Virus record (IMG/VR): IMGVR_UViG_3300017971_000427
Location: 1 to 43,819 of that record
Source of the DNA: a virus
Reading direction: 5' to 3' (one strand)
DNA length: 43,819 bases
Shown: one piece after another, positions 3,629 to 43,023 of the stretch
Position numbering within the stretch: the first letter of the stretch is position 1
Layout: each line of letters starts with the position of its first letter
Program-made: the position numbers and the translations under genes
The notes under the pieces: model-generated
What the model was told of the DNA's origin: nothing
Databases searched by the model: none
What the model saw: only the letters and a program-made list of their open reading frames with translations

Positions 3629-4003
3629 TTAAACGGTATAATCGACCTCGAAAAAGCTGAGGCGCCCAGGACATGACATAAACGTCAAGGGCGCGATATT
3701 TTCAAACACAAAGCCATAAGGCCCGAAAAAATAGGGGCTCTCATGATCCGTGACGCACGCGACGAGATCCGCGCGGCCGACGATCCCCCCTCTTAAAAAA
3801 TCTTTCGGATGAGGCAGCGCCGCCAGGCCGAGGGCCTCTTTGTTTTGCTGCAGCCATTTAAAACCGTCATGATCAAACTTTTTGCCGGCATGAATTAAAA
3901 AAGATCCTCGAAAATTTGTTCTCCAGGAGCGATTTTCGACCGGCTTGCCGTTGAGTATCGCCCAGGCCCAGGGCTGCCGAATTGATAAAGCTTTATATTT
4001 CAT
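3629..4003 (-). CDS. ASCH-domain protein
   Basis: The protein is 124 residues. It begins MKYKALSIRQPWAWAILNG, the typical ASCH opening (S-I-R-Q-P-W-A), followed by ENRSWRTNFRG and later GGIVGRADLVACV. ASCH is a PUA-like beta-barrel thought to bind RNA; some members are amidohydrolases acting on modified cytidine, and phages often carry single-domain copies. The start overlaps the end of the upstream PD-(D/E)XK-like gene by 11 bp. Which activity this copy has cannot be told from sequence alone. Confidence 0.88.
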   Translation of the reverse strand: MKYKALSIRQPWAWAILNGKPVENRSWRTNFRGSFLIHAGKKFDHDGFKWLQQNKEALGLAALPHPKDFLRGGIVGRADLVACVTDHESPYFFGPYGFVFENIAPLTFMSCPGRLSFFEVDYTV

Positions 4004-4493
4004 TTTGACCTCGCCGTATATTCCAATATCTAAAAGTGAAAGCGTGACAGATCCTTTTGATCATGTCCTCGGTTATTTTTTCGCGATGCAATCGAGGCGC
4101 GCGCTTTTTCATGGTCGCAAAAACAGGCGCCTCGCTCCGAAAGCGAGAAACGCGCTCTTTTATTTCAATGTGACCCGAATATTCTGGGATCTCCTCGGGC
4201 TTGATGAGGCCCTCAGGAGCGACAAAGAAAAAATAATTCGGTATATGATGAGTATATTTGCTTTTTTTGTTTTCGAATAGAAATTTCATGTCGCCGTGTT
4301 TTTCGGCTTTTGATTTGAACTCTCTGAGAAAATCTGACCGGCTGCATTTGATCTCATATTCATTGATCAGGCCGGCAGTCGTGACGCTGATCAGATCGGC
4401 CTCGAGATATAAATGAAAATTCGGGATCATGTATCGATGAGCCTTTTGATAACAAAAATTATATAAGCAATTTTGAATATCTTTTTCTCTCAT
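3993..4493 (-). CDS. MmcB-like/PD-(D/E)XK-type phage protein
   Basis: The protein is 166 residues. The N-terminal half holds EADLISVTTAGLINEYEIK followed by CSRSDF. This matches the acidic residue, turn and E-x-K pattern of small PD-(D/E)XK proteins related to MmcB, which are common in phages and presumed to act on DNA. The second half (KKSKYTHHIPNYFFFVAPEG) fits the late beta-strands of the same fold, and the C-terminus is basic. It lies between a radical SAM gene and an ASCH gene. Nuclease activity is inferred from the fold. Confidence 0.7.
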   Translation of the reverse strand: MREKDIQNCLYNFCYQKAHRYMIPNFHLYLEADLISVTTAGLINEYEIKCSRSDFLREFKSKAEKHGDMKFLFENKKSKYTHHIPNYFFFVAPEGLIKPEEIPEYSGHIEIKERVSRFRSEAPVFATMKKRAPRLHREKITEDMIKRICHAFTFRYWNIRRGQNEI

Positions 4494-4516
4494 AGCTGCC
4501 TCGCTTTCGTTCTGTT

Positions 4517-5266
4517 TTATTTCAGCCCCCTCAAACTATCCTTGATATAATACTCGGTTTTAAGCCGGCTTAAAAAAGGGATCAATTTTTGATCGCGCCA
4601 GGATCTCCAGTCGGCCGGTTTATAAAAATCATATTTTTTATAGTGATTGATCTTGCCGACCTTGACTTGATCGACCAGGGTCCCGAGGTTTTCCAGGATC
4701 TTGATCGCGTCGCCCTGGTAAATAACCGGCTCGATCGAGATCCAGGTTTTTATACCCAGCTCATGAGCTTTTAAAATACTGTCGACGCGATCTTTTATCG
4801 CGGCCGCGCCCGGCTCAAGTCTCGAGGCCTTTTCTTGATCCCAGAAAACAAGGCTCGTCCCGGCTCTGAATTTTTTATAATGCTTGAGGATGTCAAAGTC
4901 CTTTGTCGCTCTCATGCCGCCCTTTGACAAGATCGTAAACGGCAAACCGTGATCGATCAGGATCTCGATCGTCGGCCTGGCCAGATTAAAAGCCTCGTCG
5001 GCCGGCTGATAGACATCGCCCACAAAAGAGAGCAAGATCTCAGGACATGCGGCGCCATACTCCAGGGCGATCTTTTTTGCATCGATCTCGAGCCGTTTTA
5101 AAAAGTCCTTTTTCGGATCGGCATCGAGATAATATTTCTCGCGATCGGTCCAGGGTGTTTTTGTGTTGTAACAATATCGGCAGCCGTGTTGACATCCCTT
5201 ATAAATATTGAGGGCCAGCTCGGCGTATTCCTGAGCCTTGCCCTTTGGTTTATAGATCAAAGTCAT
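4517..5266 (-). CDS. Radical SAM protein (SPL/COG1533-like)
   Basis: The protein is 249 residues. The sequence CQHGCRYCY near residue 25 is the C-x3-C-x2-C cluster that binds the 4Fe-4S centre of radical SAM enzymes. A later PEILLSFVGDVYQP segment and WISIEPVI near residue 175 fit the TIM-barrel strands of the spore-photoproduct-lyase-like (COG1533) branch. Phage members occur but their substrates are unknown; repair or modification of nucleic acid is the usual guess. It starts one base before the stop of the upstream gene ends. No C-terminal auxiliary cluster is visible. Confidence 0.85.
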   Translation of the reverse strand: MTLIYKPKGKAQEYAELALNIYKGCQHGCRYCYNTKTPWTDREKYYLDADPKKDFLKRLEIDAKKIALEYGAACPEILLSFVGDVYQPADEAFNLARPTIEILIDHGLPFTILSKGGMRATKDFDILKHYKKFRAGTSLVFWDQEKASRLEPGAAAIKDRVDSILKAHELGIKTWISIEPVIYQGDAIKILENLGTLVDQVKVGKINHYKKYDFYKPADWRSWRDQKLIPFLSRLKTEYYIKDSLRGLK

Positions 5267-6130
5267 TTAAGCCTCGCATATATCACATTTATATTTTCCA
5301 TAAGGACAGGAGCTGCAGATCCCTTTTAAATATCGCTCGCGATAATTCTCGCCGTCCTTGCCGGTTAATTTATGATGATATTTTCGGATTGATAAAGTGT
5401 GTCGAATAAACGGCAGCGCCCAGCCTGTTTTTTTCGCGTAGCCGGTCAGCGTTTTCTTGCTCTCGTTTGCTACCAGGACCGCGCTCGACTTTGCAAAAAC
5501 TGTCTCGCCGTTCGCGCCTTTAAAAAAAACGTATTTTTTCCCGAAAGTCGATCGAAAAAAATCGACCAGGCCGTCGCGATCTTTAAAGCGGCATTGCGTC
5601 CAGGGATCTCGGCCGTCATCGATAACGACCTTGACGTCGATCGGGTCAGTTAAAACAGGCATCATGTAACGCCTATTAAAATTATATGCCGGGTTTCTGA
5701 TACCGTTCCAACGATAAGCACAATAAAACCGGCGCCAGGGGTTCGAAATATTCTTTTCGATTATCATGCCCCATTGTAACCAGGCCCCGAGCTTGTTCGG
5801 GTCTCTGGTTTGTCCGATGTTATTGTCAAGATACTTCTCAACGAATTCAACGCCGCCACAGTCAGCGAATTCGCCGGCATCGTCATCGAGAAACCACCAC
5901 AAAAAAGTTGAGATCCAGGCGACAAATTTTGAAACCTTTTTCTCGGGATAATATCCCTCAGGCTCCTCGAGCTTGATCTTGTGATAATTATAATAATTCA
6001 CGCGGACCCAGACCCTGAGATAATACGCGAGAGGATAAAAAAACTTGCTGAAAATAACGCGCAACAATGGGACGACGAGCTGAGCGGTCCATTTAATTTG
6101 TGTTTTGATCATGTCCGTTTTTGTGATCAT
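5267..6130 (-). CDS. DUF7338-like phage protein
   Basis: The protein is 287 residues. The N-terminal 50 residues are aromatic and hydrophobic and might lie in or on the membrane (VVPLLRVIFSKFFYPLAYYL). Next come FLWWFLDDDAGEF and NGIRNPAYNFNRRY, patterns I associate with the phage DUF7338 group. The C-terminus ends in a Cys cluster (CSSCPYGKYKCDICEA) that could bind zinc or iron. Start: AGGAGAG lies 4-5 nt before the ATG at 6130; the gene overlaps the upstream one by 38 bp. The family assignment is tentative and the function unknown. Confidence 0.6.
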   Translation of the reverse strand: MITKTDMIKTQIKWTAQLVVPLLRVIFSKFFYPLAYYLRVWVRVNYYNYHKIKLEEPEGYYPEKKVSKFVAWISTFLWWFLDDDAGEFADCGGVEFVEKYLDNNIGQTRDPNKLGAWLQWGMIIEKNISNPWRRFYCAYRWNGIRNPAYNFNRRYMMPVLTDPIDVKVVIDDGRDPWTQCRFKDRDGLVDFFRSTFGKKYVFFKGANGETVFAKSSAVLVANESKKTLTGYAKKTGWALPFIRHTLSIRKYHHKLTGKDGENYRERYLKGICSSCPYGKYKCDICEA

Positions 6131-6656
6131 GTCTCTCTCCTGGTTTAATGGTCGATTGATATTGATCTTTCATGAGCGCCTCATAATCAAATTTGTCTTT
6201 TAAAATATCCGTGACTTTAACGCGAGGGCCCTCGGTCCTGATGATCTCATCGTTTAAAGTATACTTATATTTATCGATTGTAATCAAGCGATAAACAAAA
6301 TCGACGCCTTTTCTCGTCGGCGAATACATGCCCGAGGATCTCTTTTTCGGATCTGAATTGTCAGCTCTCTCGACCAGGCCCCAGAGCTGCAGCTGAGAAA
6401 AATTGCCGTTGCCCCGGTCGCTCCTGGACATATTGAATTGATCCAAATGTATCGGCTCGCCGTCATACATATTGACGAGCCTGACCAGGCCGGCGACGGC
6501 CGACGATATCGGGCGTTTTTTCCAGACCTGGGCTTTTCTCTCGCAGCAAGGACAGATCGCCGGGCCCTGAGAGATCGCTTTTTTAAATTTATCTTTTATG
6601 TTTAAAAACTCATTGAATATTGAAAAATGGATCGGTATTTTTGCCGGCGTTTTCAT
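6093..6656 (-). CDS. Phage zinc-ribbon/winged-helix protein
   Basis: The protein is 187 residues. A CPCCERKAQVWKRP-like segment near residue 36 suggests a half zinc ribbon. It is followed by a helical region and SQLQLWGLVERADN then SGMYSPTRKGVDFVY, which look like the recognition helix and wing of a winged-helix domain. Proteins of this layout are common hypotheticals in phage early operons, where DNA binding or regulation is plausible. The start is supported by GGGGG before the ATG. Confidence 0.65.
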   Translation of the reverse strand: MKTPAKIPIHFSIFNEFLNIKDKFKKAISQGPAICPCCERKAQVWKKRPISSAVAGLVRLVNMYDGEPIHLDQFNMSRSDRGNGNFSQLQLWGLVERADNSDPKKRSSGMYSPTRKGVDFVYRLITIDKYKYTLNDEIIRTEGPRVKVTDILKDKFDYEALMKDQYQSTIKPGERHDHKNGHDQNTN

Positions 6657-6667
6657 GAGGCCCCCTT

Positions 6668-6928
6668 TTAAAGTTTGCTATCTCTGAGCTTAACCGCTCC
6701 AATATCGCAAGAGCAAAATTTGTCCTCGATTTTTCCTGTATCATTACAGGCCTGACACAAAAAAGCTTTTCGCTCGTTTTCAATTAATCCCTCGAGGCTT
6801 TGAATATTTCTGATTAAAATAATCTTTTCTTGTTGTACCTCATAAAGTTCTTGCTGCAGTTTCTTTTTTATGCTCTCGAGCTCAGGGATTTTTTTATCAA
6901 TTAATTTTTCAAAACTATAATTACTCAT
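6668..6928 (-). CDS. Coiled-coil protein with C-terminal Cys cluster
   Basis: The protein is 86 residues. The first 55 form a likely coiled coil (IPELESIKKKLQQELYEVQQ and onward) and the rest carry CQACNDTGKIEDKFCSC, a DnaJ-type zinc-knuckle spacing. The start has GGGGGTCTA before the ATG and overlaps the stop of the upstream gene (TAATG). It may be a protein-protein adaptor; no specific function is known. Confidence 0.7.
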   Translation of the reverse strand: MSNYSFEKLIDKKIPELESIKKKLQQELYEVQQEKIILIRNIQSLEGLIENERKAFLCQACNDTGKIEDKFCSCDIGAVKLRDSKL

Positions 6929-7167
6929 TAGACCCCCTCAAGATAATAAATCTTTTGATCGGTTATATTCGGCCGGGCACATTTTACGGCCTGGAATAAA
7001 TAAAAATCATGTCCTGGATTTTCGGCTTGTATTCTCAGGAGCTCGGCCTCGGCTTTTTCCTGGTCAAAATAGAGCCACGTCGGCCGGCGCCAGGCCTGTA
7101 TATGATAGCAGTCAGGCAAAAGCTCCGAGCAAATGTCGCTCGTTTCAATAATGACAAAGCAGTCCAT
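6928..7167 (-). CDS. Small hypothetical protein
   Basis: The protein is 79 residues, beginning MDCFVIIETSDIC with a central RRPTWLYFDQEKAEAELLRI. A GGGGGG ribosome-binding site lies 4 nt upstream of the ATG. It appears to be a compact alpha/beta domain of a type often seen as short phage hypotheticals. It directly follows sbcC in the operon and overlaps the next gene. Function unknown. Confidence 0.7.
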   Translation of the reverse strand: MDCFVIIETSDICSELLPDCYHIQAWRRPTWLYFDQEKAEAELLRIQAENPGHDFYLFQAVKCARPNITDQKIYYLEGV

Positions 7168-7177
7168 GAGCCCCCCT

Positions 7178-9502
7178 TTATCGAATTGAGATCGCGTTCT
7201 CGTTTGTTAAAAAGTTGATCGAGTTGTCGGCCATTGCAAGACATTCTTTTTTATGTGAGATATAAAAACAGTCCTCAAATCCCCCCTGATCCATGAGAGC
7301 CCGATATAAATTGACAAAGCGCTCAGCATTGTCGACGCTCAGGGCGCCGTCCTCCTCGTCAGCAAAAAAGGTTTTAAAATCGCGGCCTGATTTTTCCTTG
7401 CTGATCATAGTCATTGCCAGGCGTAAAGCTTTGAGGGCCCAGACCTGTTGACCGCCTGATCGATCGCCGAGCAAAACGTCATGACCGTCCTCGTCAATGA
7501 CGCGGATCTCCATTGTTTCGCGGCCGTCCTCGTTGAGCGTTCGAAAATCGACGCTCGATCCTGGGCCGAAAGCGGTCATTAATAAGTCGTTAGCGTTCGC
7601 CGCGATCCCAGGCGCGACGCTCTCGATCTCAAGAGCTTGGAGACCGTCCTTTGAGCATGCGTTTTTAATATAAATCCATTGAGAGGCCTCGCGCTGCAGC
7701 ATTTTCGATCGATCATCGAGGGCCTTGAGCTCAGCCTTGAGCTCGAGCTTTTTCGCGAGATCGTTTTCTCTGTCTTTTATTATATTTTCAACCTTTGAGA
7801 TCTGGCTCTCTTTGAACCTGAGATTTTTTTCGAGATCCTCGATCTTTTTCTCCCAAGTCGCCAGGCTGTCAGCTGCCGGCGTGTCGATTTTTCTTTTAAG
7901 ATCGATCATCTTTTTATTTATCGCCTCAAGCGCTGCAGTTTTCTCTCTGACGCGCTCGGTCAGCTCCTGGGACATCTTGACCCCCTGATCAATAATGTCG
8001 CCTTTTTGCTCGTTTAAAGCGTCCCGGTTTGCCTGGGCGACATCGAGCTCGCCTTGCTTTGCTGCCAGGAGAGAGAGATTTTCTTTTTGCCGATTAAGCT
8101 CCGCGATCGACGCCTCGCATCGAGCCTTGACGCTCTTTGAGGCCTCGATATTTATTTCTGATATCTTTCGCTCATAAACGTCGCTGACCGCTTTCGCCTC
8201 GAGCTCGAGATCCTCGAGCTCTTTTTTGAGACCCTCGAGGCCGGCGGCTGCAGTCTTGAGAGCCGGGAGATCCTTTTCAGCCTGGAGAGCTGACACAATA
8301 AAAGAGCAAGTTTGACTTTGACAGGCCGGGTCCCTGGTCTCGAGCGCTTTTGTTTTCTCCTGGCATGCCTTGAGCTCGACGTTTTTGATCTCTGTATCCT
8401 GGACAAGCTTTTTGACTGCCTCGATCTTTTCGTCGAAATTTTCTTTTGAGCCGGCTTGTTCTTTTCTCAGTCTCTGGATCTCGAGATCGAGCTCCTCAAT
8501 ATCAATATTGACCTGGCTGAGCTCCTGGGTCGTTTCTATGATCAGGGCCTCGATCGCCTTGATCTTGTCTGCAGCTGCAGCGATCTCCTCTTTTTGACTG
8601 AGGACCTGATCGATCGCCTCGATCTGTTTACAAAGAGCCTCGGCCTTTTTCCTGAGGGCCGCGAGCTTGCCGTCGACCTCGATTTGATCGTTCGTGTTTT
8701 CAGAGCTGATTTTATCTCGCTCGCGCTTTAATGCGTCGAGCTTGATTTTGATTTTATCGTTTTCGATGACGGCAGCCTGAGAGGCCTGGAGCGCGTCGTT
8801 TGTTGCCTGGATATCCTCTTTGACGCCTGGGATCTCTCTCTCATGAGCTGCCTTGCTTTCGGCCAGGCGCTCGATCTCTTTGTCAATATCCGCGAGCTCG
8901 AGGAGCTTGTCCGCGATCCGGTTTTTCTCAGCCCCCAGATCAAACTTTTTGCCGGCGATGATCGTCGCGGCCTTGTTGCTTGTGTCTGTATAAAGTTTAT
9001 ATTTTTCATGACCTAAGAATTCAATAAACAGGGCCGTCAATGCTGCCGGCGTGAGCTGCGATATTTTCTTTGAATTCTGAGCACAAAAGACCGAATTGAA
9101 AAACAGGTTTGAGGACCCGAAAAGATCCTCGATATATTTATCGTATTCTTTGACTTTGCCGTTTGTCTCGCTCTCGGCCTTTCCGTTCTTGTATATAAAA
9201 GCCTCTTGTCGGCCCGAGTGATTATCGATTTTTAAAATCGTTTTGTAATCGCTGCCGCCCATATTAAAGCAATATTCTTTGACGCTGTCTCTCAGCGTGC
9301 AATGATGCTGCAGCGCGCCGCTCCTGGATGCCAGGACCCGAAAAGGATGCAAGTTGTCAATCAAACTTGTCTTGCCGCGTCCGTTCGGGCCGGCGATCGC
9401 GGTCAGGCCGTCCAGGCTCGAGAGATCGAGATCGATCTCGTCCAGGCCCAGGCCCTTTTTTATGCCGATAAAGCCCCTCAATTTAATACTCAAATTTTTC
9501 AT
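7178..9502 (-). CDS. sbcC: SbcC/Rad50-like ATPase
   Basis: The protein is about 774 residues. A Walker A motif (AGPNGRGKTSLID) lies near residues 38-46 and a Q-loop-like NSVFCAQNSKKISQ near 140. Some 400 residues of coiled coil follow. At the apex two cysteines form CQSQTC (about residues 394-399), a zinc-hook-like pair spaced wider than the canonical CxxC. The C-terminal half holds the signature region (LGDRSGGQQVW) and Walker B (FFADEEDGALS). With SbcD it would form an ATP-driven nuclease that trims ends and recombination intermediates, as in T4 gp46/gp47. Start: ATG at 9502 follows AGGAGAGGCAA; the upstream TTG has no site. Confidence 0.93.
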   Translation of the reverse strand: MKNLSIKLRGFIGIKKGLGLDEIDLDLSSLDGLTAIAGPNGRGKTSLIDNLHPFRVLASRSGALQHHCTLRDSVKEYCFNMGGSDYKTILKIDNHSGRQEAFIYKNGKAESETNGKVKEYDKYIEDLFGSSNLFFNSVFCAQNSKKISQLTPAALTALFIEFLGHEKYKLYTDTSNKAATIIAGKKFDLGAEKNRIADKLLELADIDKEIERLAESKAAHEREIPGVKEDIQATNDALQASQAAVIENDKIKIKLDALKRERDKISSENTNDQIEVDGKLAALRKKAEALCKQIEAIDQVLSQKEEIAAAADKIKAIEALIIETTQELSQVNIDIEELDLEIQRLRKEQAGSKENFDEKIEAVKKLVQDTEIKNVELKACQEKTKALETRDPACQSQTCSFIVSALQAEKDLPALKTAAAGLEGLKKELEDLELEAKAVSDVYERKISEINIEASKSVKARCEASIAELNRQKENLSLLAAKQGELDVAQANRDALNEQKGDIIDQGVKMSQELTERVREKTAALEAINKKMIDLKRKIDTPAADSLATWEKKIEDLEKNLRFKESQISKVENIIKDRENDLAKKLELKAELKALDDRSKMLQREASQWIYIKNACSKDGLQALEIESVAPGIAANANDLLMTAFGPGSSVDFRTLNEDGRETMEIRVIDEDGHDVLLGDRSGGQQVWALKALRLAMTMISKEKSGRDFKTFFADEEDGALSVDNAERFVNLYRALMDQGGFEDCFYISHKKECLAMADNSINFLTNENAISIR

Positions 9503-9518
9503 TTGCCTCTCCTCTGTT

Positions 9519-10718
9519 TTAAAGTTTTGTAACCTCATCGATTATCTTGTCGGCCGGCTCAGTCTCGAGCCTCTCGACTTTCTCCAGGACCCCGGCCGGG
9601 ATCTCCTCGTTTTTAATCTCTGCTTGTTCGGTCAGTTTTTCGCCTGTCGTTCTCAACGTGATAAAATTCGCGCTCCTGACATTTTCTCGAGGGATCTGGA
9701 TCAATTCGATTTTAACATCCTGGGCGCCGGCATCGAGATAAAACTGTTTGATCAGTTTTGAATTAAAAAGAGGGACGTCGTCCCGGTATATTTTAACAGC
9801 GATCTTGACAAAAGCGTCCTTGATGTCTGCAGCCTCAGGGACGCCGGCGAGATCCCCAGATATATCGCCTTGAGTTTTGTCGAGCTCAGTTTTAAAAAGT
9901 TTTCTTGTCGGCGTTTTTATAAATCTCGAAAAGGGGACGCCCCCTTTTTTGTGTATCTCATGAACATAAAAGCCCTTGTCCTCGAGCTCGCCCCAGTCTT
10001 TTCGAAAAATAGATCCTGAGTAAAAAACATTTTTCCCGATCTGTTGAGGTTTATGAATATGACCCAGACAAACGAGATCCGCTTGAGCGAGCGAGATCTG
10101 ATCGATCGAGATCTCGATGTCTCGGCCGATTAATTGCTGAGTATCTGAGATATAAGCGCCCCCGACCTGATAATGACCGACATGTATATGAGGGCAGTCA
10201 AATTGATTTGCAAGAGATCCGAAAGATATAAACAGATCTGTCAGGGCCTCAGCGATCAGCGCGTCGCTCTCCTGGACGCCGGCGTCGGTTCTGAAATATT
10301 GCTTTGTCGGCGTCGGCGTTGTTGAGATTATAAGCTCAGGCTTATAAGGCGCCATGTCATCGGGCTCGAGACAGATTTTTGACCCAGCCAAAAACAAAAC
10401 CTCGGGCCTATGTGAAATATAGATCTCATATTTTGCTTTTATATGCTGAAAAACGAGCGGCGCGTTTCCATCATGCGACGGCGTTCCCATAACGATAATG
10501 ACCGGCGCGACGTCAGCCAGGCCGGCCAGCATTTGAAAAAGCATTTTTGTCGAATTACTATCGAGCTTGATCTCCTGGCTGTCAAAACAGTCGCCGGCGA
10601 TCGCGATCAAATCGGGTTTTATTTCATAGGCCTCAACGACGATTGAATTCATGCACGTCGAAACCTCGACAAAGTCTTTCTCTCTGGCGTGTATGTCTGC
10701 AAGGTGTAAAACTCTCAT
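9519..10718 (-). CDS. sbcD: SbcD/Mre11-like exonuclease
   Basis: The protein is 399 residues and a calcineurin-type metallophosphoesterase. Metal-binding motifs in order: LADIH (residues 6-10), AGDCFDS (about 42), GTPSHDG where most Mre11 proteins have GNHD, HVGHYQVG, and CLGHIHKPQ. The C-terminal 120 residues are the capping and ATPase-binding region. It is the nuclease partner of the SbcC encoded next. AGGAG lies 6 nt before the ATG. The changed GTPSHD motif keeps His and Asp and is probably functional. Confidence 0.93.
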   Translation of the reverse strand: MRVLHLADIHAREKDFVEVSTCMNSIVVEAYEIKPDLIAIAGDCFDSQEIKLDSNSTKMLFQMLAGLADVAPVIIVMGTPSHDGNAPLVFQHIKAKYEIYISHRPEVLFLAGSKICLEPDDMAPYKPELIISTTPTPTKQYFRTDAGVQESDALIAEALTDLFISFGSLANQFDCPHIHVGHYQVGGAYISDTQQLIGRDIEISIDQISLAQADLVCLGHIHKPQQIGKNVFYSGSIFRKDWGELEDKGFYVHEIHKKGGVPFSRFIKTPTRKLFKTELDKTQGDISGDLAGVPEAADIKDAFVKIAVKIYRDDVPLFNSKLIKQFYLDAGAQDVKIELIQIPRENVRSANFITLRTTGEKLTEQAEIKNEEIPAGVLEKVERLETEPADKIIDEVTKL

Positions 10719-10730
10719 GTTTGTCTCCTG

Positions 10731-11867
10731 TTAAAAAGGGATATCATCGTCGGGCAGCGTGATCAGTTTGCCGAAAAAATTGAGCCTGGTTTGCTCTGTT
10801 AAGCCCAGCAAAAAAGGCTCGGTCGAAAAGGTTTTCTCGCTGCAGTCATTTAAATTTTTCATTTGATCAGGCAGATCCTTAAATTTAAAAGCTTTGCGCG
10901 AGATCAAATTTATCAGCTCTTTGACTTGCTCAGCCGGCTCCAGATTTCCAAAGTCAAAAAGCGCGTTTTTGTTTTTGTCATCCATACCAGGCCCAGGCCC
11001 AGGCGCCGGCGCTGTCTCTCCTGGGGGCCCTGAGGGATACGGCTCAGCCGGGCCCTCGGGGATCGGCTCCGTGACGTCTTGATGAGGGACGTCAATCACA
11101 GGCGCGCGCGCGTCCAGGTTAGTCGGGACGCTGCCGCCCCCATATACTGCAGCCTGAGCGCTGAGGCCTTTTTCAAGCATGATTTGACGGACCTTTTCGT
11201 CGTTATAATCGGGCTGAAAAACAATTCTGACCATGACAAAAGGCTTTTGCAGCTCCTGGACAGTATAAGCTTGTTTGAGCCCGAGCAAAAACCTGACGAC
11301 GCGGTTCATCGCGCCGGTCTCGCATAATTTTAATTTATGTTTTCTTTTCTGCAGCAAGTCGCGCCTGACGCAGCTGTTTATATATGCGAGCTTTTCGTTT
11401 TTGAATTGTTCATCGGTTTTTTGTCCTTGTTTCCAGTATTCGACTTTTTTTGAATATAGATCAAGGAGCTCTTGCTCGATGACCTCAAAGTCGAGATCGT
11501 ATTCAGCCTTGAACCATACGACCGCGCCGTCCGCTTTTCGGATACCGCCGACCGCTTGAAACGAAATATAATTTTTATCGTTCATCGGATCGGTCCGTCG
11601 TGTCTCTGTCGGATGCCATAAAAGGCCGGCACAAATTGAAAGCTTTGAGATCGCTGTTTTTGTCGGCCGAAATTTTTTGCAGTCCTTTGAGTTGTCGGCC
11701 GGGTAGACGTCGCCGTCGTCAGGGTTCGGGCTCAGATAAACGCTGTCAACGACCGGCGCGTGAAATTCTGACAGGCCGGCGATCGACGTCGAGGGGAGCA
11801 ACAGGTTTGCCCCCTCTTTTCTCGCTGTCTCGATTTCGTTTGTGATTAAATCTGTTTTTTCTGTCAT
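10731..11867 (-). CDS. Candidate ssDNA-binding/annealing protein with SSB-like tail
   Basis: The protein is about 378 residues. The first 190 form a folded domain (SPNPDDGDVYP, KFRPTKTAISKLSICAGLLW, AVGGIRKADGAVVWFKAEYD). A Pro/Gly-rich linker follows (around residues 235-290), then a helical segment. The last residues are LPDDDIPF, whose final six equal the tip of bacterial SSB proteins that docks repair enzymes. Its place between a VRR-NUC nuclease and SbcD, coupled by ATGA overlap, fits a phage annealing or single-strand-binding role. I do not recognise a RecT, Erf or Rad52 signature, so the fold is undecided. Start: GAGGAG 6 nt before the ATG at 11867. Confidence 0.65.
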   Translation of the reverse strand: MTEKTDLITNEIETARKEGANLLLPSTSIAGLSEFHAPVVDSVYLSPNPDDGDVYPADNSKDCKKFRPTKTAISKLSICAGLLWHPTETRRTDPMNDKNYISFQAVGGIRKADGAVVWFKAEYDLDFEVIEQELLDLYSKKVEYWKQGQKTDEQFKNEKLAYINSCVRRDLLQKRKHKLKLCETGAMNRVVRFLLGLKQAYTVQELQKPFVMVRIVFQPDYNDEKVRQIMLEKGLSAQAAVYGGGSVPTNLDARAPVIDVPHQDVTEPIPEGPAEPYPSGPPGETAPAPGPGPGMDDKNKNALFDFGNLEPAEQVKELINLISRKAFKFKDLPDQMKNLNDCSEKTFSTEPFLLGLTEQTRLNFFGKLITLPDDDIPF

Positions 11868-36807: not shown

Positions 36808-37062
36808 TTAATAGACCGGCAGAGCGATTGCCTTGCCTGAGCCATTGAGCCGGGCCTCGTAAATTGTCAGCAAGTTCAAATATCCCTCGAGGCCTTTTCG
36901 CAGATCCTCGATATTGTGTCGCGTGACGCTTTGAACGGTCTGACCTGTATCCAGGCGATATGTCTCAGTCGGGTTCGCAATTAGAAAAGCGATCGCTGTC
37001 TCATAGGCAACGATCAGGGCCTCAGTCGCTGTGATCCTCTCTTGCAAGAAAGTCGAATTCAT
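36808..37062 (-). CDS. Head-tail joining protein gpW-like
   Basis: The protein is 84 residues. A helical opening (ERITATEALIVAYETAIAFL), a short hairpin YRLDTGQTVQSVTRHNIEDL and a final helix YLNLLTIYEARL fit gpW or the related DUF6148 proteins. It is directly upstream of the portal, as in lambda. It is the first gene after the divergent control region. Confidence 0.75.
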   Translation of the reverse strand: MNSTFLQERITATEALIVAYETAIAFLIANPTETYRLDTGQTVQSVTRHNIEDLRKGLEGYLNLLTIYEARLNGSGKAIALPVY

Positions 37063-37103
37063 AGGCTGATTTGATTTTTTTAAATTAACAGTTAATTTTC
37101 TTT

Positions 37104-37131
37104 ATTTTGCATGACATTTTTGAGAAGTCAA
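37104..37131 (-). promoter_or_regulatory. Candidate late promoter for head/tail operon
   Basis: On the minus strand TTGACT (37131-37126) is followed after 16 bp by CAAAAT (37109-37104). It lies about 45 bp before the gpW start codon. The match is moderate and no activator site is assigned. Confidence 0.4.
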
Positions 37132-37179
37132 GCAAATTATCGGGCATAAGTGTCCGATACTACCCTGCAGGGGCCGAGC

Positions 37180-37251
37180 GGTCAAAAATGACCTGGGGGG
37201 GGATTTTTACCAGGCAGAAAAATCCCCCCTAAAATGTGACAATTTTTGTCA
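37180..37251. promoter_or_regulatory. Cluster of palindromes in the divergent control region
   Basis: Three perfect inverted repeats lie in 72 bp: GGTCA-AAAA-TGACC (37180-37193), a 12-bp stem GGGGGGATTTTT/AAAAATCCCCCC with loop ACCAGGCAG (37197-37229), and TGACAA-TTT-TTGTCA (37237-37251). The last contains TTGACA on the minus strand and looks like an operator. The larger stem lacks a U tail, so it may be a regulatory or origin structure rather than a terminator. Confidence 0.6.
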
Positions 37252-37331
37252 AAAAGCCTGTTTTTGAAACGCCTGTTTTTATTACACATTTTTATCAATT
37301 CTGACATTTATTGTTTTCTATTAACAACATT

Positions 37332-37470
37332 TGTTAAAAGAGGGGCCTGGAGCTGCCGGGCCCGGTTTTCTTATTGTTAAGAGCTGTTAAGATCTGCAGC
37401 GATTTCAGCCGTTTAAAATCTTTCTGTTTTCTTGTTAAACCTTGTTAAGTTGGCATGTTAATTGCGTTAA
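37332..37470 (+). repeat. TGTTAA direct-repeat array
   Basis: TGTTAA occurs at 37332, 37375, 37385, 37433, 37443 and 37456, with CGTTAA at 37465. Two pairs are spaced exactly 10 bp, one helical turn. The array sits just before the rightward cassette. A repressor array or replication iterons are both possible. The rest of 37063-37479 is AT-rich and holds no gene. Confidence 0.65.
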
Positions 37471-37518
37471 TAAATAACCATGAGCGCGACAACAAAAAAC
37501 ACAAACGAGGAGAAAAAA

Positions 37519-37737
37519 ATGAAAAAATCAGATCTTATCCGTCATTTTTACAATGACCGCGAGCATGGTTTCACGGCGAATGTAATTCTCAACGGCTGCA
37601 GCAACCCGACAAAAAAACTCAAGGGCCTTTACAACCTGGCGAAAGCGGATCGCGTCAGGCATGCTCAGTTTGATACATACAGCGTCGTAATTGACGGCCG
37701 TCAGGTTTCAATATCAGAGCTCGAAAAATACGCATAA
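37519..37737 (+). CDS. Small hypothetical protein, first gene of rightward cassette
   Basis: The protein is 72 residues. The ATG at 37519 is preferred over 37480 because GAGGAG lies 6 nt upstream. It opens MKKSDLIRHFYNDREHGFTA, contains NPTKKLKGLYNLAKADRVRH and ends SELEKYA. It is basic and mixed helical; it may bind DNA or RNA, but no family is recognised. The next gene's ribosome-binding site overlaps its stop codon, so the two are coupled. Confidence 0.7.
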   Translation: MKKSDLIRHFYNDREHGFTANVILNGCSNPTKKLKGLYNLAKADRVRHAQFDTYSVVIDGRQVSISELEKYA

Positions 37738-37747
37738 GGAGAAAAAA

Positions 37748-38752
37748 ATGAACAACAGGCCCGAGGCAAACATCGACATCGAAAATTATGATTTTTACAT
37801 CGTCGCTTTTTCTGGCGGCAAAGATAGTCTTGCTTGTGTCCTGGATCTCCTGGATCGCGGCGTCCCCAAAGAAAAAATTGAGCTCTGGCATCATTGCATT
37901 GACGGCCGCGAGGGTTCGACCTTAATGGATTGGCCAGTCACAGAGGATTATTGCAAGAAAGTCGCCGACGCCCTGGGCCTCAAGATTTTTTTCTCCTGGA
38001 AAGTCGGCGGCTTTGAGAGAGAGATGTTAAGAGAGAACGCCAGGACCGCCCCGACAAGTTTCGAAAAATTAAACGATGACAATATAATCGAGTGCGGCCT
38101 CGCCGGCGGCACAAGAGGCAAAGAGAGCACGCGCCGCAAGTTCCCTCAAATGAGCGCGAGCCTCTCAACGCGCTGGTGTTCGGCTTACCTTAAAATTGAC
38201 GTTTGCACCGCAGCCATAAACAACCAGGAGAGATTTTTGAACAAGAGGACCCTGGTCATTACAGGCGAGAGAGCCGAGGAGAGCCCGGCCCGAGCGAATT
38301 ATAAAACCTTTGAGCCTGACAGATCCGACAACAGGGACGGCAAAAGAGTTGTCAGGCATGTTGACCACCTCAGGCCGGTTCATTCCTGGACCGAGCGAGA
38401 AGTCTGGGACATTATCGAAAAATACAAGATCCTGGCTCATCCAGCGTATCGCCTCGGCTGGGCCCGGCTCTCTTGTATGACTTGCATATTCGGATCAAAA
38501 AACCAATGGGCGAGCGTCAAGAAAATCGCCAGGGAAAAGATTGAAAAAATCGCAGCCTATGAAAATGAATTCGGTTTCACAATAAACAGAAAAAAATCAG
38601 TCATGGAGCTCGCAGCTGACGGCCGCGCATATGAGGACATGAGCGACGAGATCGTCAAGTCAGCCATGAGCAAAGAATATAATGAGCCGGTTTTTGTGGA
38701 GACCTGGGATCTCCCGGCCGGCGCTTTCGGCGAGAACGCCGGGCCACAATAA
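37748..38752 (+). CDS. PAPS-reductase/DndC-like PP-loop enzyme
   Basis: The protein is 334 residues. The PP-loop AFSGGKDSLACVLDLL near residue 20 binds ATP. RWCSAYLKIDVCTAAI near 140, VITGERAEESPARANY and WTEREVWDIIEKYKI are typical of the phosphoadenosine phosphosulfate reductase family. SCMTCIFGS near 240 adds a Cys pair. Relatives include sulfate-assimilation reductases, tRNA-thiolation enzymes and DndC of DNA phosphorothioation. No DndA, DndD or DndE partner is present. Start: AAGGAG before ATG 37748. Confidence 0.88.
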   Translation: MNNRPEANIDIENYDFYIVAFSGGKDSLACVLDLLDRGVPKEKIELWHHCIDGREGSTLMDWPVTEDYCKKVADALGLKIFFSWKVGGFEREMLRENARTAPTSFEKLNDDNIIECGLAGGTRGKESTRRKFPQMSASLSTRWCSAYLKIDVCTAAINNQERFLNKRTLVITGERAEESPARANYKTFEPDRSDNRDGKRVVRHVDHLRPVHSWTEREVWDIIEKYKILAHPAYRLGWARLSCMTCIFGSKNQWASVKKIAREKIEKIAAYENEFGFTINRKKSVMELAADGRAYEDMSDEIVKSAMSKEYNEPVFVETWDLPAGAFGENAGPQ

Positions 38753-38772
38753 AAAACAGAGAGGAGAGGCAA

Positions 38773-39153
38773 ATGAAATTAAATCACATCGTTTTAAAAC
38801 CGCAAAGGATAGAGCTCAAGGACATAAACAATGACGTCCCGACATACGGCGAAATTTTTGCCGAGCTCATGCAAGATCTTGTTGACCTGGCCAAAGGGCG
38901 CCGCGACGAGTTTTTGATCGCGCCCTGGAGCTCAAGAGCTGCAGCGATCCAGGAAACAAAAAAGCAGATCCGCGCGCTCCTGGCCGAGATCGTCGTTTAT
39001 AAAGACATTGACGACAACGGTCCCAGCTATACCATTTATGAAAACGGCGTTTGCATCGGATCTTATTTGAGCGACGACCTTTTTGTCAAAGAGTGTCTCG
39101 CCGGCAAACATGGCCGCGTAAAAATCAAGGGCGGTATCGATAACAGAAGTTAA
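38773..39153 (+). CDS. Hypothetical protein of the rightward cassette
   Basis: The protein is 126 residues. It opens MKLNHIVLKPQRIELKDINN, has a helical middle (YGEIFAELMQDLVDLAKGRR) and a beta-rich end (SYTIYENGVCIGSYLSDDLF). AGAGGAGAGGCAA precedes the ATG, the motif shared by other genes of this block. No homologous family is recognised. It lies between the PP-loop enzyme and the methyltransferase. Confidence 0.7.
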   Translation: MKLNHIVLKPQRIELKDINNDVPTYGEIFAELMQDLVDLAKGRRDEFLIAPWSSRAAAIQETKKQIRALLAEIVVYKDIDDNGPSYTIYENGVCIGSYLSDDLFVKECLAGKHGRVKIKGGIDNRS

Positions 39154-39161
39154 AAAGGACC

Positions 39162-39184
39162 GGGCCCCTGTTTATCAGGGGCCC
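39162..39184 (+). other. GC-rich leader hairpin 1
   Basis: GGGCCCCTG-TTTAT-CAGGGGCCC forms a perfect 9-bp stem between two genes, 12 nt before the methyltransferase ATG. No U-run follows, so it is not a normal terminator. It resembles the hairpin at 40071-40094. Confidence 0.65.
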
Positions 39185-39196
39185 CAGGAGAGAGCC

Positions 39197-39898
39197 ATGA
39201 CACAAGAGATTGAAAACATGATCCGCGATTGCAATTATTACAGCGATCAATTTTATCAGACCGACGACATTGAGGATTATTATCTCAGCCTGGAGCCGCT
39301 CAGCCCCTGTCAAAAAACGATCCTGTCGCTTTTTGATTTTTCCGGGACCTGGGCCGCGCCATACGTTGAGGCCGGTTATAACGTGATCCATATCGACATA
39401 AAACACGGCCTCGACATTAATGAGATAAACATCGACTTTTTACTCGACAACGATATCGCCGATTTATACGGCGTCCTGGCCGCGCCGCCTTGTACTGACT
39501 TTTCAAGCTCGGGCGCTCAATACTGGCCGGCAAAAGACGAGGACGGCAGAACGGCCGCGAGCCTGGAGCTCGTTTATCAAGTCTTGAGGATCGTCGATTT
39601 TTGCCGGCCGCGTTTCTGGGCCCTGGAAAATCCTATCGGCCGGCTGCCGCGCCTGATCCCAGAGATTGAAAAGCCCTGGTATTTTCAGCCCCATTTTTTC
39701 GGCGATGCTTACACGAAAAAAAGCGGTCTCTGGGGTCATTTCAATAAGGACCTGGAGAGAAACGACGTCGAGCCGATCCGCAGCTGCAAGGCCGGCTCCT
39801 GGCTCATGAAGCTCGGCGGCAAATCAGAAAAAACAAAAGAGTTGAGATCGATGACGCCCCCAGGATTTGCGAGGGCATTTTTTAACGCTAACCAATAA
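39197..39898 (+). CDS. Compact C5-cytosine methyltransferase-like protein
   Basis: The protein is 233 residues. Motif I appears as SLFDFSGTWAAPYVEAGYNV near residue 44, motif IV as LAAPPCTDFSSSGAQYW (catalytic Cys in PPC, near 100) and motif VI as WALENPIGRLP near 142. These would place SAM and attack cytosine C5. It is short: no large target-recognition domain, and the QRR motif VIII is not clear, so specificity may come from a partner or the protein may be a distant relative. AGGAGAG before ATG. It could protect phage DNA. Confidence 0.8.
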   Translation: MTQEIENMIRDCNYYSDQFYQTDDIEDYYLSLEPLSPCQKTILSLFDFSGTWAAPYVEAGYNVIHIDIKHGLDINEINIDFLLDNDIADLYGVLAAPPCTDFSSSGAQYWPAKDEDGRTAASLELVYQVLRIVDFCRPRFWALENPIGRLPRLIPEIEKPWYFQPHFFGDAYTKKSGLWGHFNKDLERNDVEPIRSCKAGSWLMKLGGKSEKTKELRSMTPPGFARAFFNANQ

Positions 39899-39914
39899 CA
39901 GAGAGGAGAGGCAA

Positions 39915-40061
39915 ATGAAAATTTATTTTGAAAACACCGAGGCCGGCATCCGAGACCTCGCCGTTTATACGGCCGAGCTCGTTCGCCAGGGTATCCAGTT
40001 CGAGGGATTTTTTGACACATCAAAAAAAGACTATGTCGTTATTTTAACCGGGGGATATTAA
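39915..40061 (+). CDS. 48-residue hypothetical protein
   Basis: ATG at 39915 follows AGAGGAGAGGCAA exactly; a longer frame from 39867 overlaps the methyltransferase. The product opens MKIYFENTEAGIRDLAVYTA and ends TSKKDYVVILTGGY, a small alpha/beta unit. Unknown. Confidence 0.7.
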   Translation: MKIYFENTEAGIRDLAVYTAELVRQGIQFEGFFDTSKKDYVVILTGGY

Positions 40062-40070
40062 CAGACAACA

Positions 40071-40094
40071 GGGCCCCGGTTTATCCTGGGGCCC
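40071..40094 (+). other. GC-rich leader hairpin 2
   Basis: GGGCCCC (40071-40077) pairs with GGGGCCC (40088-40094) around GGTTTATCCT; it ends 14 nt before the next ATG. The stem and the TTTAT loop core match hairpin 1 at 39162. Confidence 0.6.
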
Positions 40095-40108
40095 GAGAGG
40101 AGAGGCAA

Positions 40109-40633
40109 ATGACAAAAGAGGACATTATCATCGAGGCGTTAATCAGAGAGCTCAGGCAGCCGATTGATCAAGACAATTATGCCGAGACAATGGACATGCT
40201 CAACAGAAAAAACAAGCTCGTTGAGTGCCTGGAGCTGGATCTCGAGACCGAAACGATCGAGGCGATCAACATGAATTTATTTCTTGTAAAATATCAGAAC
40301 GATCAGCGAAAGCTCTGGGCGATTTTCAAAAACAGCGACCGACATTTTGATATAAAAGAGAACCTCAGGAAGTGTCACGCCCAGCCATATCGGACCGGCA
40401 CGCATTATGATATTTACGAGATCAAGGACGGCACGCCGCGACATTATTTCGAGCCCGAGGAGATCGCGGCTCTCTGGCCAGAGCGACAGATAAAAGAAAA
40501 ATATGGGACGACGGATCTCGAGGAGCTCAACGAGACCCTGAGAGGGATCGCGTTGCAGTATACCGACGGCAACGTCGAATTTTTTGCAACGCGCCAGGAC
40601 GCAAATTATTTTATATTAACCGTTAGATTTTAA
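40109..40633 (+). CDS. Hypothetical protein of the rightward cassette
   Basis: The protein is 174 residues. It opens MTKEDIIIEALIRELRQPID, with an acidic helix NRKNKLVECLELDLETETIE and a later segment HYDIYEIKDGTPRHYFEPEE. AGAGGAGAGGCAA precedes the ATG. No family is recognised. The beta-rich ending is reminiscent of the 126-residue protein in the same block, which may be coincidence. Confidence 0.7.
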   Translation: MTKEDIIIEALIRELRQPIDQDNYAETMDMLNRKNKLVECLELDLETETIEAINMNLFLVKYQNDQRKLWAIFKNSDRHFDIKENLRKCHAQPYRTGTHYDIYEIKDGTPRHYFEPEEIAALWPERQIKEKYGTTDLEELNETLRGIALQYTDGNVEFFATRQDANYFILTVRF

Positions 40634-40686
40634 AACATGGACATTTAGCTTTTTAAAAGTACACCTAAAAACGAGAGGAGACCATC

Positions 40687-40836
40687 ATGAAAAAAGTTAT
40701 TTTTTCGATTAACATTTCCGAGGACCTGAGAGACAAGATTGACGCCGAGGCAGCGCGCCAGGAGAGATCAAGATCCTGGATGATTGAAAAGGCGTTAAAA
40801 GAAAAATTTGACAAAGCCGATAAATCTGATAAATAG
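40687..40836 (+). CDS. Ribbon-helix-helix (CopG/Arc-like) regulator
   Basis: The protein is 49 residues. It begins MKKVIFSINISEDLRDKIDA, an antiparallel ribbon strand then helix, followed by AARQERSRSWMIEKALKEKF, the second helix with the conserved R-S-x-x-I/W-M-I-E turn. This is the RHH fold of small dimeric repressors. AGGAG lies 6 nt before the ATG. It ends the cassette and is a natural candidate to bind the TGTTAA repeats or the TGACAA palindrome upstream of the block, but this is inference. Confidence 0.8.
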   Translation: MKKVIFSINISEDLRDKIDAEAARQERSRSWMIEKALKEKFDKADKSDK

Positions 40837-40870
40837 AAAAGATCTGGCTCGTCTTTTTTCTCCTTATGAG

Positions 40871-40905
40871 GGCCCCCAGGTTTGCCGCCTGGGGGCCTTT
40901 TTTTT
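40871..40905 (+). terminator. Strong intrinsic terminator of the rightward cassette
   Basis: GGCCCCCAGG (40871-40880) and CCTGGGGGCC (40888-40897) form a perfect 10-bp stem with a 7-base loop, followed by eight T residues. It separates the cassette from the converging terminase gene. Confidence 0.92.
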
Positions 40906-42874
40906 ATTTCGAATAGTAGGGCTCAAACTCGGCAGCCCATTTCCAGAATTGATGATAATTTATGCCGTCGATCTCAAACTCCTCGCGGCAAACAGTAAAG
41001 ACAATAAGATCCAGGGCGGCCATGTTATAAATACGACAGTCCCAGGCATGAGCCGGCTTGTTCGGGATCTGGGTCCACCAATAGCCGAGAAATTTGTTTG
41101 TTTTTTTGCTGCGGATCTCTGTTTTGTATTCAGCCTCGTATTGTCTGAAATAACTATCGGGGTAGTCGTGAGGATAATTACAAAAGCCGAGGGGCTGCCG
41201 TTCGGGGGGGTTCCAATCGCGACGCAGCCAGGCCGCGAGCCTGTCTTTGTATAGCGTGACATTAATATTAAAAGCGATCGTCCCGGCCTTGCTCGTATAT
41301 TCAGCGAATTCTCTGAGCCTGGCGGTCCTGGGCGGCGTGTCTCGACCCATAACAGGATAAACGCCGCTTGAGTAATCTGCAGCGAATTGATAAACCGTGT
41401 CCGTCCGATATCTGGCATCGATAAAAGTCGTTTGTATCGCATAAAGTTTTTTGTCGTCAGCTCTCCAGGTTTCGCGCTCGATCATGTCCCTCAGCTGATC
41501 CCAGGGAGAGCCGGGTCCGCTTAAAATTTCCGTGTCGCCCTCGAGCTCGCGCCAGTCGACCGAATACGATCGGCCGTCCTTTGCCCAGCCCATGACCTCG
41601 ACCCCGATCCATTTTTTGTGAACGTCTGCAGCTGCAGTCAAAAGAAAGATCGGGCCGCCGGTCTCTTTTTTCGCTGCTTTGTTCGGGATCTCGTTTCGAG
41701 TATAGATCGGGCGCCTGTGTTGTATGATCCGCTCAAATTTCGGCGCCTCGCCTCGCTCCTCCCAGGGCAAACCGAGACAAGTATTATAAAAAGTCCTGAG
41801 GGCCTCGAGATCCTTTGCGCGGTCCGCTTTGATATCCCAGGCCTCGAGCCATTCATAAACCATTGAGATCCAGCTAAACATACCAGGCGGCGAATATAAC
41901 GCGCTGATATGATACGAGCGAAAATTTCTCTCTTGAGGATCTGCAGTCGCGACCCATTTGCCGCGAGATAAAAACCAGGCCTTGTCAAAGTCATACCAGG
42001 CAGCAAAACAATATTTGCAAAGATATCTGACGCTCTCCTCGATCAAGATCCCTTGCTCGCTAACGTCAAATAAAATACCGTATGCCTCGCCGTCCTCAGT
42101 TTTGCCCTGGAATTCGAGCTCCTGGAATTCGCCGCAATATTTACAGGGGACCTCGTATTTTCTTTGATCGCCGCGCTTATACTGTTTATAAATTTTCGAG
42201 GTTTGCATGACCAGGGGCGTCGACAGATAAACGATCGATCGAGTTAAGTCAAAAGCCTTTGTCCTGTTTTCTGCCAGTTTAACAGGATCGCCCTCGTCGC
42301 CGAGCTTGTCGGGCATGCCGTCGAGCTCATCAAGTCGGATCTTTTTGACGCTCATCTGCCTCAGTTTGCCGGGGTTCTGAGCTCCGACCGGCAGCAAAAA
42401 GCCGCCGGGAAAATCTTTTTTGTCAGTCGTGTCGCCAGTCTTTCGGCTTTTTTCATCTGCCGGCCTGATACGATCCTGCAGTCCGCAGCTCTCGAGCATG
42501 CGATCGACTTTGACCTCGATCGCCATTTTGACGAGGGCCTTGTCGGCCGAGACATACATATAACCGCAAGGATCATGCTCGATTGTATATCCGAGATCGT
42601 TCTCGATGATCGCCGTCGTCGCTCCGACCTGGGCCGCTTTCATTATTGCAAGTTTTCTGACCTCGCTGTTAACGCTGAGACAGTTCATCGGCTCGATCCA
42701 GTAAGGCGTATATGAATTATCCCAAAAGCCGGGGCGGCTTGTGAGCTCGGGCGGCATGTAACGATTTTCCTCGGCCCATTGAGAAACCTCGAGAGAGATC
42801 TTTTCGTCAGTCAGATTGTCAACCTGGTCGATCAGCCAGAGATAATCAAAATTGTCGGCGATGATATCAATCAT
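40904..42874 (-). CDS. Terminase large subunit (lambda gpA family)
   Basis: The protein is about 656 residues. Start at 42874 (GGGG 6 nt upstream); an upstream TTG has no site. ATPase: IMKAAQVGATTAII near residue 68, the deviant P-loop of gpA whose lysine precedes the loop; an acidic Walker B-like KIRLDELDGMPD near 180; zinc-type Cys sets CKYCGEF and CKYCFAAW around 255-300. Nuclease domain: LTAAADVHKKWIGVEVMGW near 420 with a catalytic Asp, and TTFIDARYRTDTVYQFA. It packages DNA with the small subunit upstream. Confidence 0.95.
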   Translation of the reverse strand: MIDIIADNFDYLWLIDQVDNLTDEKISLEVSQWAEENRYMPPELTSRPGFWDNSYTPYWIEPMNCLSVNSEVRKLAIMKAAQVGATTAIIENDLGYTIEHDPCGYMYVSADKALVKMAIEVKVDRMLESCGLQDRIRPADEKSRKTGDTTDKKDFPGGFLLPVGAQNPGKLRQMSVKKIRLDELDGMPDKLGDEGDPVKLAENRTKAFDLTRSIVYLSTPLVMQTSKIYKQYKRGDQRKYEVPCKYCGEFQELEFQGKTEDGEAYGILFDVSEQGILIEESVRYLCKYCFAAWYDFDKAWFLSRGKWVATADPQERNFRSYHISALYSPPGMFSWISMVYEWLEAWDIKADRAKDLEALRTFYNTCLGLPWEERGEAPKFERIIQHRRPIYTRNEIPNKAAKKETGGPIFLLTAAADVHKKWIGVEVMGWAKDGRSYSVDWRELEGDTEILSGPGSPWDQLRDMIERETWRADDKKLYAIQTTFIDARYRTDTVYQFAADYSSGVYPVMGRDTPPRTARLREFAEYTSKAGTIAFNINVTLYKDRLAAWLRRDWNPPERQPLGFCNYPHDYPDSYFRQYEAEYKTEIRSKKTNKFLGYWWTQIPNKPAHAWDCRIYNMAALDLIVFTVCREEFEIDGINYHQFWKWAAEFEPYYSK

Positions 42875-43023
42875 TTTTTGCCCCAGGCATTTTTTTAAAA
42901 TACATATCTGACCAGTCGCTGCAGAAAAACGGCCATGTCTCAATAATAAATTTTCTCAATTTGCAGAACCGATCCAGGCCCCGAAAAGTAAAATTTTTAC
43001 AAGTGCCGCATTGTTTATCTTGA

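Follow-up and report, generated by a model that had tools for sequence, protein, structure and literature searches.

Does a group of genes that runs against the direction of an entire phage genome serve to mark the DNA of the virus that carries it? This question is raised by the IMG/VR virus record IMGVR_UViG_3300017971_000427, which was analysed over all of its 43,819 bases (the window) and in which all genes point leftward except a cassette of seven open reading frames (ORFs; g1 to g7, positions 37519-40836). An earlier note, made from the sequence alone, had described this rightward block as parting TerL from gpW and the portal, and had proposed a self-contained DNA-modification or anti-defence module with a PP-loop sulfurtransferase-like enzyme (g2) and a compact cytosine methyltransferase (g4). 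The block was found where it had been described. As the best reading, the cassette would be an operon that marks phage DNA for protection from restriction, in a DNA-modification or counter-defence role, and a probability of about one half was given to this. Most likely, independently acquired counter-restriction genes were gathered in one autoregulated cassette.

An accessory operon inserted into the head module

The head and packaging genes of the phage are of the lambda type (TerL gpA, a lambda-family portal and capsid protein E) and are accompanied by Mu-like tail parts, SbcCD, a helicase and a radical SAM gene, and the Pfam families listed for the window (25 of 28) include no integrase. 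The junction between TerL and gpW is empty, shows a short gap or holds one gene in related phages, with a spacing of 32 bp in Aeromonas phage AeroV_348, 66 bp in Vibrio phage 1.030.O, a 345-bp gap in Acinetobacter phage Scuro and a single forward gene in Shewanella phage SppYZU01. The cassette is therefore an insertion at this place. Since it also brings a control region and a terminator of its own, an accessory (moron) operon, predicted as such from the sequence and inserted between terminase and connector genes, is well supported.

The genes of the cassette are closely packed, with intergenic gaps of 10, 20, 43, 16, 47 and 53 bases from g1 to g7. A GGAG-type ribosome-binding site precedes every one of the seven ORFs, and a codon model derived from the leftward genes of the phage gave the right frame the best score in all seven. 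Because G+C content (48.6% versus 49.6% for the phage) and codon use (correlation of 0.91 versus 0.93-0.96 for core segments longer than 2 kb) are close to those of the phage, the cassette is not a recent compositional outlier and is adapted to its carrier. Close relatives of the phage, as judged by TerL, were found neither in IMG/VR using peptide patterns nor in the 18 contigs with g2 or g4 relatives.

The PP-loop enzyme

Relatives of g2 were collected from about 60 loci in viral contigs (L003-L014), bacterial genome contigs (L062-L109) and Pseudoalteromonas phage KB12-38 (L007), and the family is a PP-loop family of mobile elements. In an alignment of 47 sequences, the PP-loop FSGGKDS (residues 21-27 of g2) is conserved and the cysteines C144, C243 and C246 are invariant (47/47). 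With an SGGxDS loop and three conserved cysteines, g2 has the sequence features of three-cysteine PP-loop sulfurtransferases of the TtuA/NcsA type, and the assignment as a PP-loop sulfurtransferase-like enzyme holds at the level of family (PF01507) and predicted fold. The cysteine triad would fit an open [4Fe-4S] site, with a cluster such as that reported for DndC (PMC10853773).

The AlphaFold2 model of g2 (predicted local distance difference test, pLDDT, 94.7) adopts the fold of adenosine 5'-phosphosulfate (APS) and 3'-phosphoadenosine 5'-phosphosulfate (PAPS) reductases, which were the nearest solved folds (2goy, Z score 13.9, 198 residues, root-mean-square deviation 3.7). Lower in the list stand the [4Fe-4S] tRNA thiolases TtuA (Z 11.5) and NcsA (Z 10.9). 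By profile tests, g2 is neither DndC nor CysH, because it scored far below both cut-offs, with 29.5 bits against 290.4 for the DndC model TIGR03183 and 16.0 against 165.1 for the CysH model; the APS reductase model gave 33.7 against 235.3. The catalytic C-terminal ECGxH-type motif of CysH was found in none of the 47 aligned sequences. When g2 and g4 were compared by sequence with solved structures, no convincing relative emerged. The only solved chain that weakly matched the g2-family profile was 'PptA' (PDB 21fy chain C, E-value 0.008, around the CxxC), for which a literature search returned no paper.

A PP-loop core is shared by g2 with DndC, SspD and BrxP, proteins of phosphorothioation and type 4 BREX, albeit with weak profile scores (BrxP 64.5, SspD 37.5 and DndC 29.5-32.3 bits). 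DndC has three cluster cysteines and a unique cysteine dyad (PMC10853773); g2 has three cysteines too, but lacks the conserved extra dyad. Partners of the DndA, DndD, DndE or BREX type were not recognised among the cassette matches, nor did a Dnd partner appear in the Pfam list for the other 46 ORFs (25 of 28 families). Model cut-offs and the lack of partners led to the rejection of a standard Dnd, Ssp or BREX system, which agrees with the earlier statement that this is not a standard Dnd system.

The compact C5-methyltransferase

g4 scored 28.3 bits against PF00145 (cut-off 22) and carries the motifs PPCT and ENP, with C99 and E144-N145 invariant in the alignment. Its predicted structure (pLDDT 74, with the N-terminal 36 residues unreliable) matched DNMT3A (Z 14.4), M.HhaI (Z 13.7) and the carboxymethylcytosine enzyme CmoX (8yf3, Z 12.5). 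Profile, Pro-Cys and Glu-Asn motifs and predicted fold all identify a C5-cytosine methyltransferase, so that this part of the earlier description was confirmed. In these respects g4 resembles the compact phage enzymes of phrog_757, from which it differs by a length of only 233 residues, a motif VIII region reading YTKK[ST] and APPC where CmoX has SPPC. It leaves little room for a target-recognition domain, and the position corresponding to Arg350 of CmoX has no certain alignment. Relatives in viral contigs are 41-64% identical. A g4-type methyltransferase domain, 49.5% identical, also forms part of a giant protein (about 5,145 residues) with a structural annotation in Pseudomonas phage 8P (L146).

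Genomic company of the PP-loop family

The neighbourhood of g2 relatives was examined for recurrent partners. A C5-methyltransferase on the same strand lies within the fetched flanks at 13 of 60 loci and is adjacent (at most 600 bp) at six, where genes drawn at random from these loci would give 1.6 on average (P 0.0024); after removal of near-duplicates it is adjacent at 5 of 49 loci (P 0.015, permutation test). These methyltransferases belong to several subfamilies. A Pfam test of immediate neighbours was weak (6/107 near versus 1/85 far), three of the six being manual additions at places for which the simple gene caller had picked antisense ORFs, and the permutation test was preferred.

In two viral contigs, the g2 domain is part of a giant protein, namely one of 2025 amino acids with Portal_Mu and ART-PolyVal (L005) and one of 1684 amino acids with InPase (inorganic pyrophosphatase) and Mom (L006). 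Other immediate neighbours of g2 relatives include RadC, ArdC, MPTase-PolyVal and DndB. The homologue of phage KB12-38, 54% identical to g2, adjoins a C5-methyltransferase and has further PAPS-like genes and a DndB/DGQHR protein nearby. The adjacency to C5-methyltransferases and the fusions to Mom, portal and ADP-ribosyltransferase domains support a DNA-modification or counter-defence role for g2, and the common theme of these surroundings points to nucleic-acid modification or counter-defence without one fixed partner.

Some details of these loci were recorded in addition. In the L005 protein (5268-11345), a Mu-type portal is lengthened by further domains of methyltransferase-like, PAPS-reductase-like and ART-PolyVal type. 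In L006 (IMGVR_UViG_3300007345_000035, 3918-8972), a 577-residue C5-methyltransferase lies downstream of the fusion protein. The KB12-38 cluster, with several PAPS-like genes, spans L007 4478-12574, and DndB and methyltransferase genes related to those of KB12-38 occur in Pseudoalteromonas sp. 0303 (L095). Compared with polyvalent phage proteins (PMC5512222), which the L005 and L006 fusions resemble, the g2 domain stands alone in the window; the text of that paper mentions neither PAPS nor PP-loop domains.

Opposite-strand blocks with a g2-family gene among leftward structural genes were also found in L003 and in L010/L069, the last two apparently being one prophage found twice. The L003 block is again placed in the head module, with the major head protein on one side and head morphogenesis, portal and terminase genes on the other, and an XRE regulator lies directly downstream. 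A PAPS-reductase-like insert has been reported in Thermus phage Tsatsa (PMC11437467). g2 is of the same family as such phage morons at profile level (phrog_424), and is likewise an insert in a mobile element, but it differs by its seven-gene opposite-strand operon with a ribbon-helix-helix (RHH) gene and by a family with three invariant cysteines and without ECGxH.

Proposed role and competing explanations

According to the proposed mechanism, transcription of the cassette would start in a promoter region of its own and run against that of the late genes, with probable repression by its terminal RHH protein via tandem TGTTAA boxes. g2, the main enzyme, would most likely use ATP to activate a nucleic-acid substrate, and an open [4Fe-4S] site of three cysteines would serve for sulfur insertion, with a chemistry that may resemble that of TtuA, NcsA and DndC-type enzymes, to judge from fold and cysteines. 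g4 would methylate cytosines of DNA at C5, the two enzymes working side by side or, with lower probability, one after the other. Phage DNA would thus be marked early in infection, and host restriction would not cut it. Sulfur in DNA from g2 is possible. A wider proposal, in which the g2 family forms a new class of mobile-element sulfur-insertion enzyme (a single-protein PP-loop/[4Fe-4S] type without Dnd partners) that, by itself or following a C5-methyltransferase, gives a sulfur-bearing modification of DNA base or backbone and protects phages and plasmids from restriction, is considered speculative and rather unlikely. If the g2 family did modify DNA with sulfur, phages would be able to thiolate DNA with one protein. 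The cassette would in any case be a compact system of two enzymes, one regulator and one candidate operator.

Several findings weigh against the protective role. Of the cysteines in the g2 family only the triad is invariant, so that a conserved dyad of the DndC type is not present, and no sulfur donor was recognised. The substrate of TtuA and NcsA is tRNA, and DNA can therefore only be presumed as the target of g2. The pairing of the RHH protein with the boxes has position as its sole basis. g1, g3, g5 and g6 had no relatives and hence lend no support to a multi-subunit machine. The g2 family was found in none of 12 contigs bearing g4 relatives, an absence that is weak evidence as some contigs are fragments, and of the 11 viral contigs with the g2 family, some again being fragments, just 4 had any C5-methyltransferase. 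Because of the former count the g2/g4 pair is not a conserved couple, and the two genes in the window are a combination. Relatives of the five small cassette proteins were not found where searched. A conserved seven-gene module was rejected, and the co-conservation put forward earlier was not borne out; independent scattering, the outcome named at that time as speaking against a module, was observed for the two enzymes. What stands of the self-contained module is the separately controlled accessory cassette and the context of the g2 family.

The main alternative is that g2 thiolates tRNA in the manner of TtcA, TtuA or NcsA, for example to protect or tune tRNAs in infection, and that g4 is an unrelated anti-restriction gene. 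tRNA thiolases have a three-cysteine cluster, TtuA and NcsA rank high among the solved [4Fe-4S] sulfur-insertion structures, and the g2 family is mostly without an adjacent methyltransferase. However, the closest folds are APS/PAPS reductases rather than tRNA enzymes, and it is DNA-modification and polyvalent domains that recur as neighbours and fusion partners, so this explanation was judged unlikely. The recurrent proximity to C5-methyltransferases of several subfamilies would also suit a single hypermodification pathway, in which g4 makes a cytosine handle that g2 sulfurates or adenylates, by analogy to carboxymethylcytosine formation by CmoX/CmoY, a phage precedent for handles made by C5-methyltransferases (PMC12783734). 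Relatives of g4 occur without g2, g4 departs from the SPPC that defines CmoX, and neither CmoA nor an AMP-forming ligase was among the family matches listed for the window (for Pfam, 25 of 28), and this pathway appears quite improbable.

The prominence of the RHH gene has also to be considered, as the RHH protein and a small orphan might be the functional unit of a regulatory or toxin-antitoxin-like island with the enzymes as passengers. RHH proteins are often antitoxins, g7 gave weak RelB/VapB profile scores, and the small orphans g5 and g6 lie ahead of it. Yet no toxin family was found for g5 or g6 in Pfam and PHROGs, nor for g6 in NCBIfam and PADLOC, and the operon is headed by the PP-loop enzyme rather than by an RHH/orphan pair, which leaves such an island little credit. 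Very little is likewise to be said for the view that g2 is a genuine PAPS/APS reductase and, as an auxiliary metabolic gene, boosts host sulfate assimilation. Its Pfam and PHROG names and nearest fold suggest this, and phage homologues of this type are often annotated accordingly (PMC6145125), but the low CysH and APS reductase scores argue against it and a role in sulfate assimilation is disfavoured by the lack of the ECGxH motif. Viral genes named 'cysH' or 'PAPS reductase' are often counted as sulfur assimilation; for the g2 family this is probably wrong, because the motif is absent in all 47 relatives examined and the company is one of DNA-modification and polyvalent domains.

Control elements and further features

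The features of the cassette and its flanks are collected in Table 1.

Table 1. Coordinates of the cassette genes, flanking genes and putative control elements in the window
Feature	Position	Strand	Remarks
gpW-like gene	36808-37062	-	cassette flank
Divergent intergenic control region, gpW (leftward)/cassette (rightward)	37063-37518		A+T-rich, 37% G+C
Tandem TGTTAA/GTTAA boxes, putative RHH operator	37375-37470	+	boxes 37375/37385, 37433/37443/37456/37466
g1, orphan protein, 72 amino acids	37519-37737	+	coding signal; upstream in-frame start ATG at 37480
g2, PP-loop PAPS-reductase-like protein, 334 amino acids	37748-38752	+	PF01507 9e-12, phrog_424 8e-36
g3, orphan protein, 126 amino acids	38773-39153	+	no relatives found
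Perfect hairpin, terminator-like on minus strand	39162-39184	-	T's follow on minus strand
g4, compact C5-cytosine DNA methyltransferase, 233 amino acids	39197-39898	+	PF00145 1.6e-6, phrog_757 6e-43
g5, orphan protein, 48 amino acids	39915-40061	+	coding signal
Second hairpin, imperfect, related to first	40071-40095		directly before g6 ribosome-binding site; repeat family
g6, orphan protein, 174 amino acids	40109-40633	+	no relatives found
g7, RHH (CopG/Arc type) DNA-binding protein, 49 amino acids, putative autorepressor	40687-40836	+	PF01402
Intrinsic terminator of cassette, strong, rightward	40868-40900	+	14-pair stem, T8 tail, after g7
TerL	40904-42943	-	cassette flank

The repeat-rich upstream region, the terminal RHH gene and the strong terminator had all been noticed before and were all recovered. 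TGTTAA occurs in eight copies in the 456 bp upstream of g1 compared with 0.58 expected (0/3000 first-order simulations reached eight), and the four same-strand GTTAA pairs spaced by 8-13 bp (37376/37386, 37434/37444, 37444/37457 and 37457/37466) are the only ones in the whole window. Phased tandem boxes are a usual form of operator for RHH repressors. g7 matched the RHH_1 profile PF01402 with 34.2 bits (2.2e-8, cut-off 20.5). Because the tandem boxes precede an operon whose last gene encodes an RHH protein, g7 probably represses its own operon at these boxes. A promoter scan gave 16 matches versus 4.3 expected in this A+T-rich stretch, none of those listed being a rightward match within 37375-37518.

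Shared leaders and repeated hairpins, also named in the earlier note, were confirmed in part. The exact leader AGAGGAGAGGCAA occurs four times (0.07 expected), before three of the seven cassette genes and the SbcC gene of the phage, and is for this latter reason not a mark of the cassette. The SbcC copy lies at 9503-9515 on the minus strand, and the SbcC-like gene (minus strand) probably, even very likely, starts after it at 9502 rather than at 9538. Both hairpins are of a related GGGCCCC-TTTATC type, with just the first forming a perfect stem, which may stop leftward read-through from TerL. Rfam gave no match in the cassette region.

Radical SAM or Gp37/Gp68-like Cys-rich proteins lie near the PAPS-like family in L004, L068, L072, L077 and L088. 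They had no tblastn similarity to the gene at 4517-5266 (minus strand) of the window, which lies outside the cassette and encodes a radical SAM protein of phrog_13321 that is distantly related to the 'DNA repair photolyase' phrog_9252.

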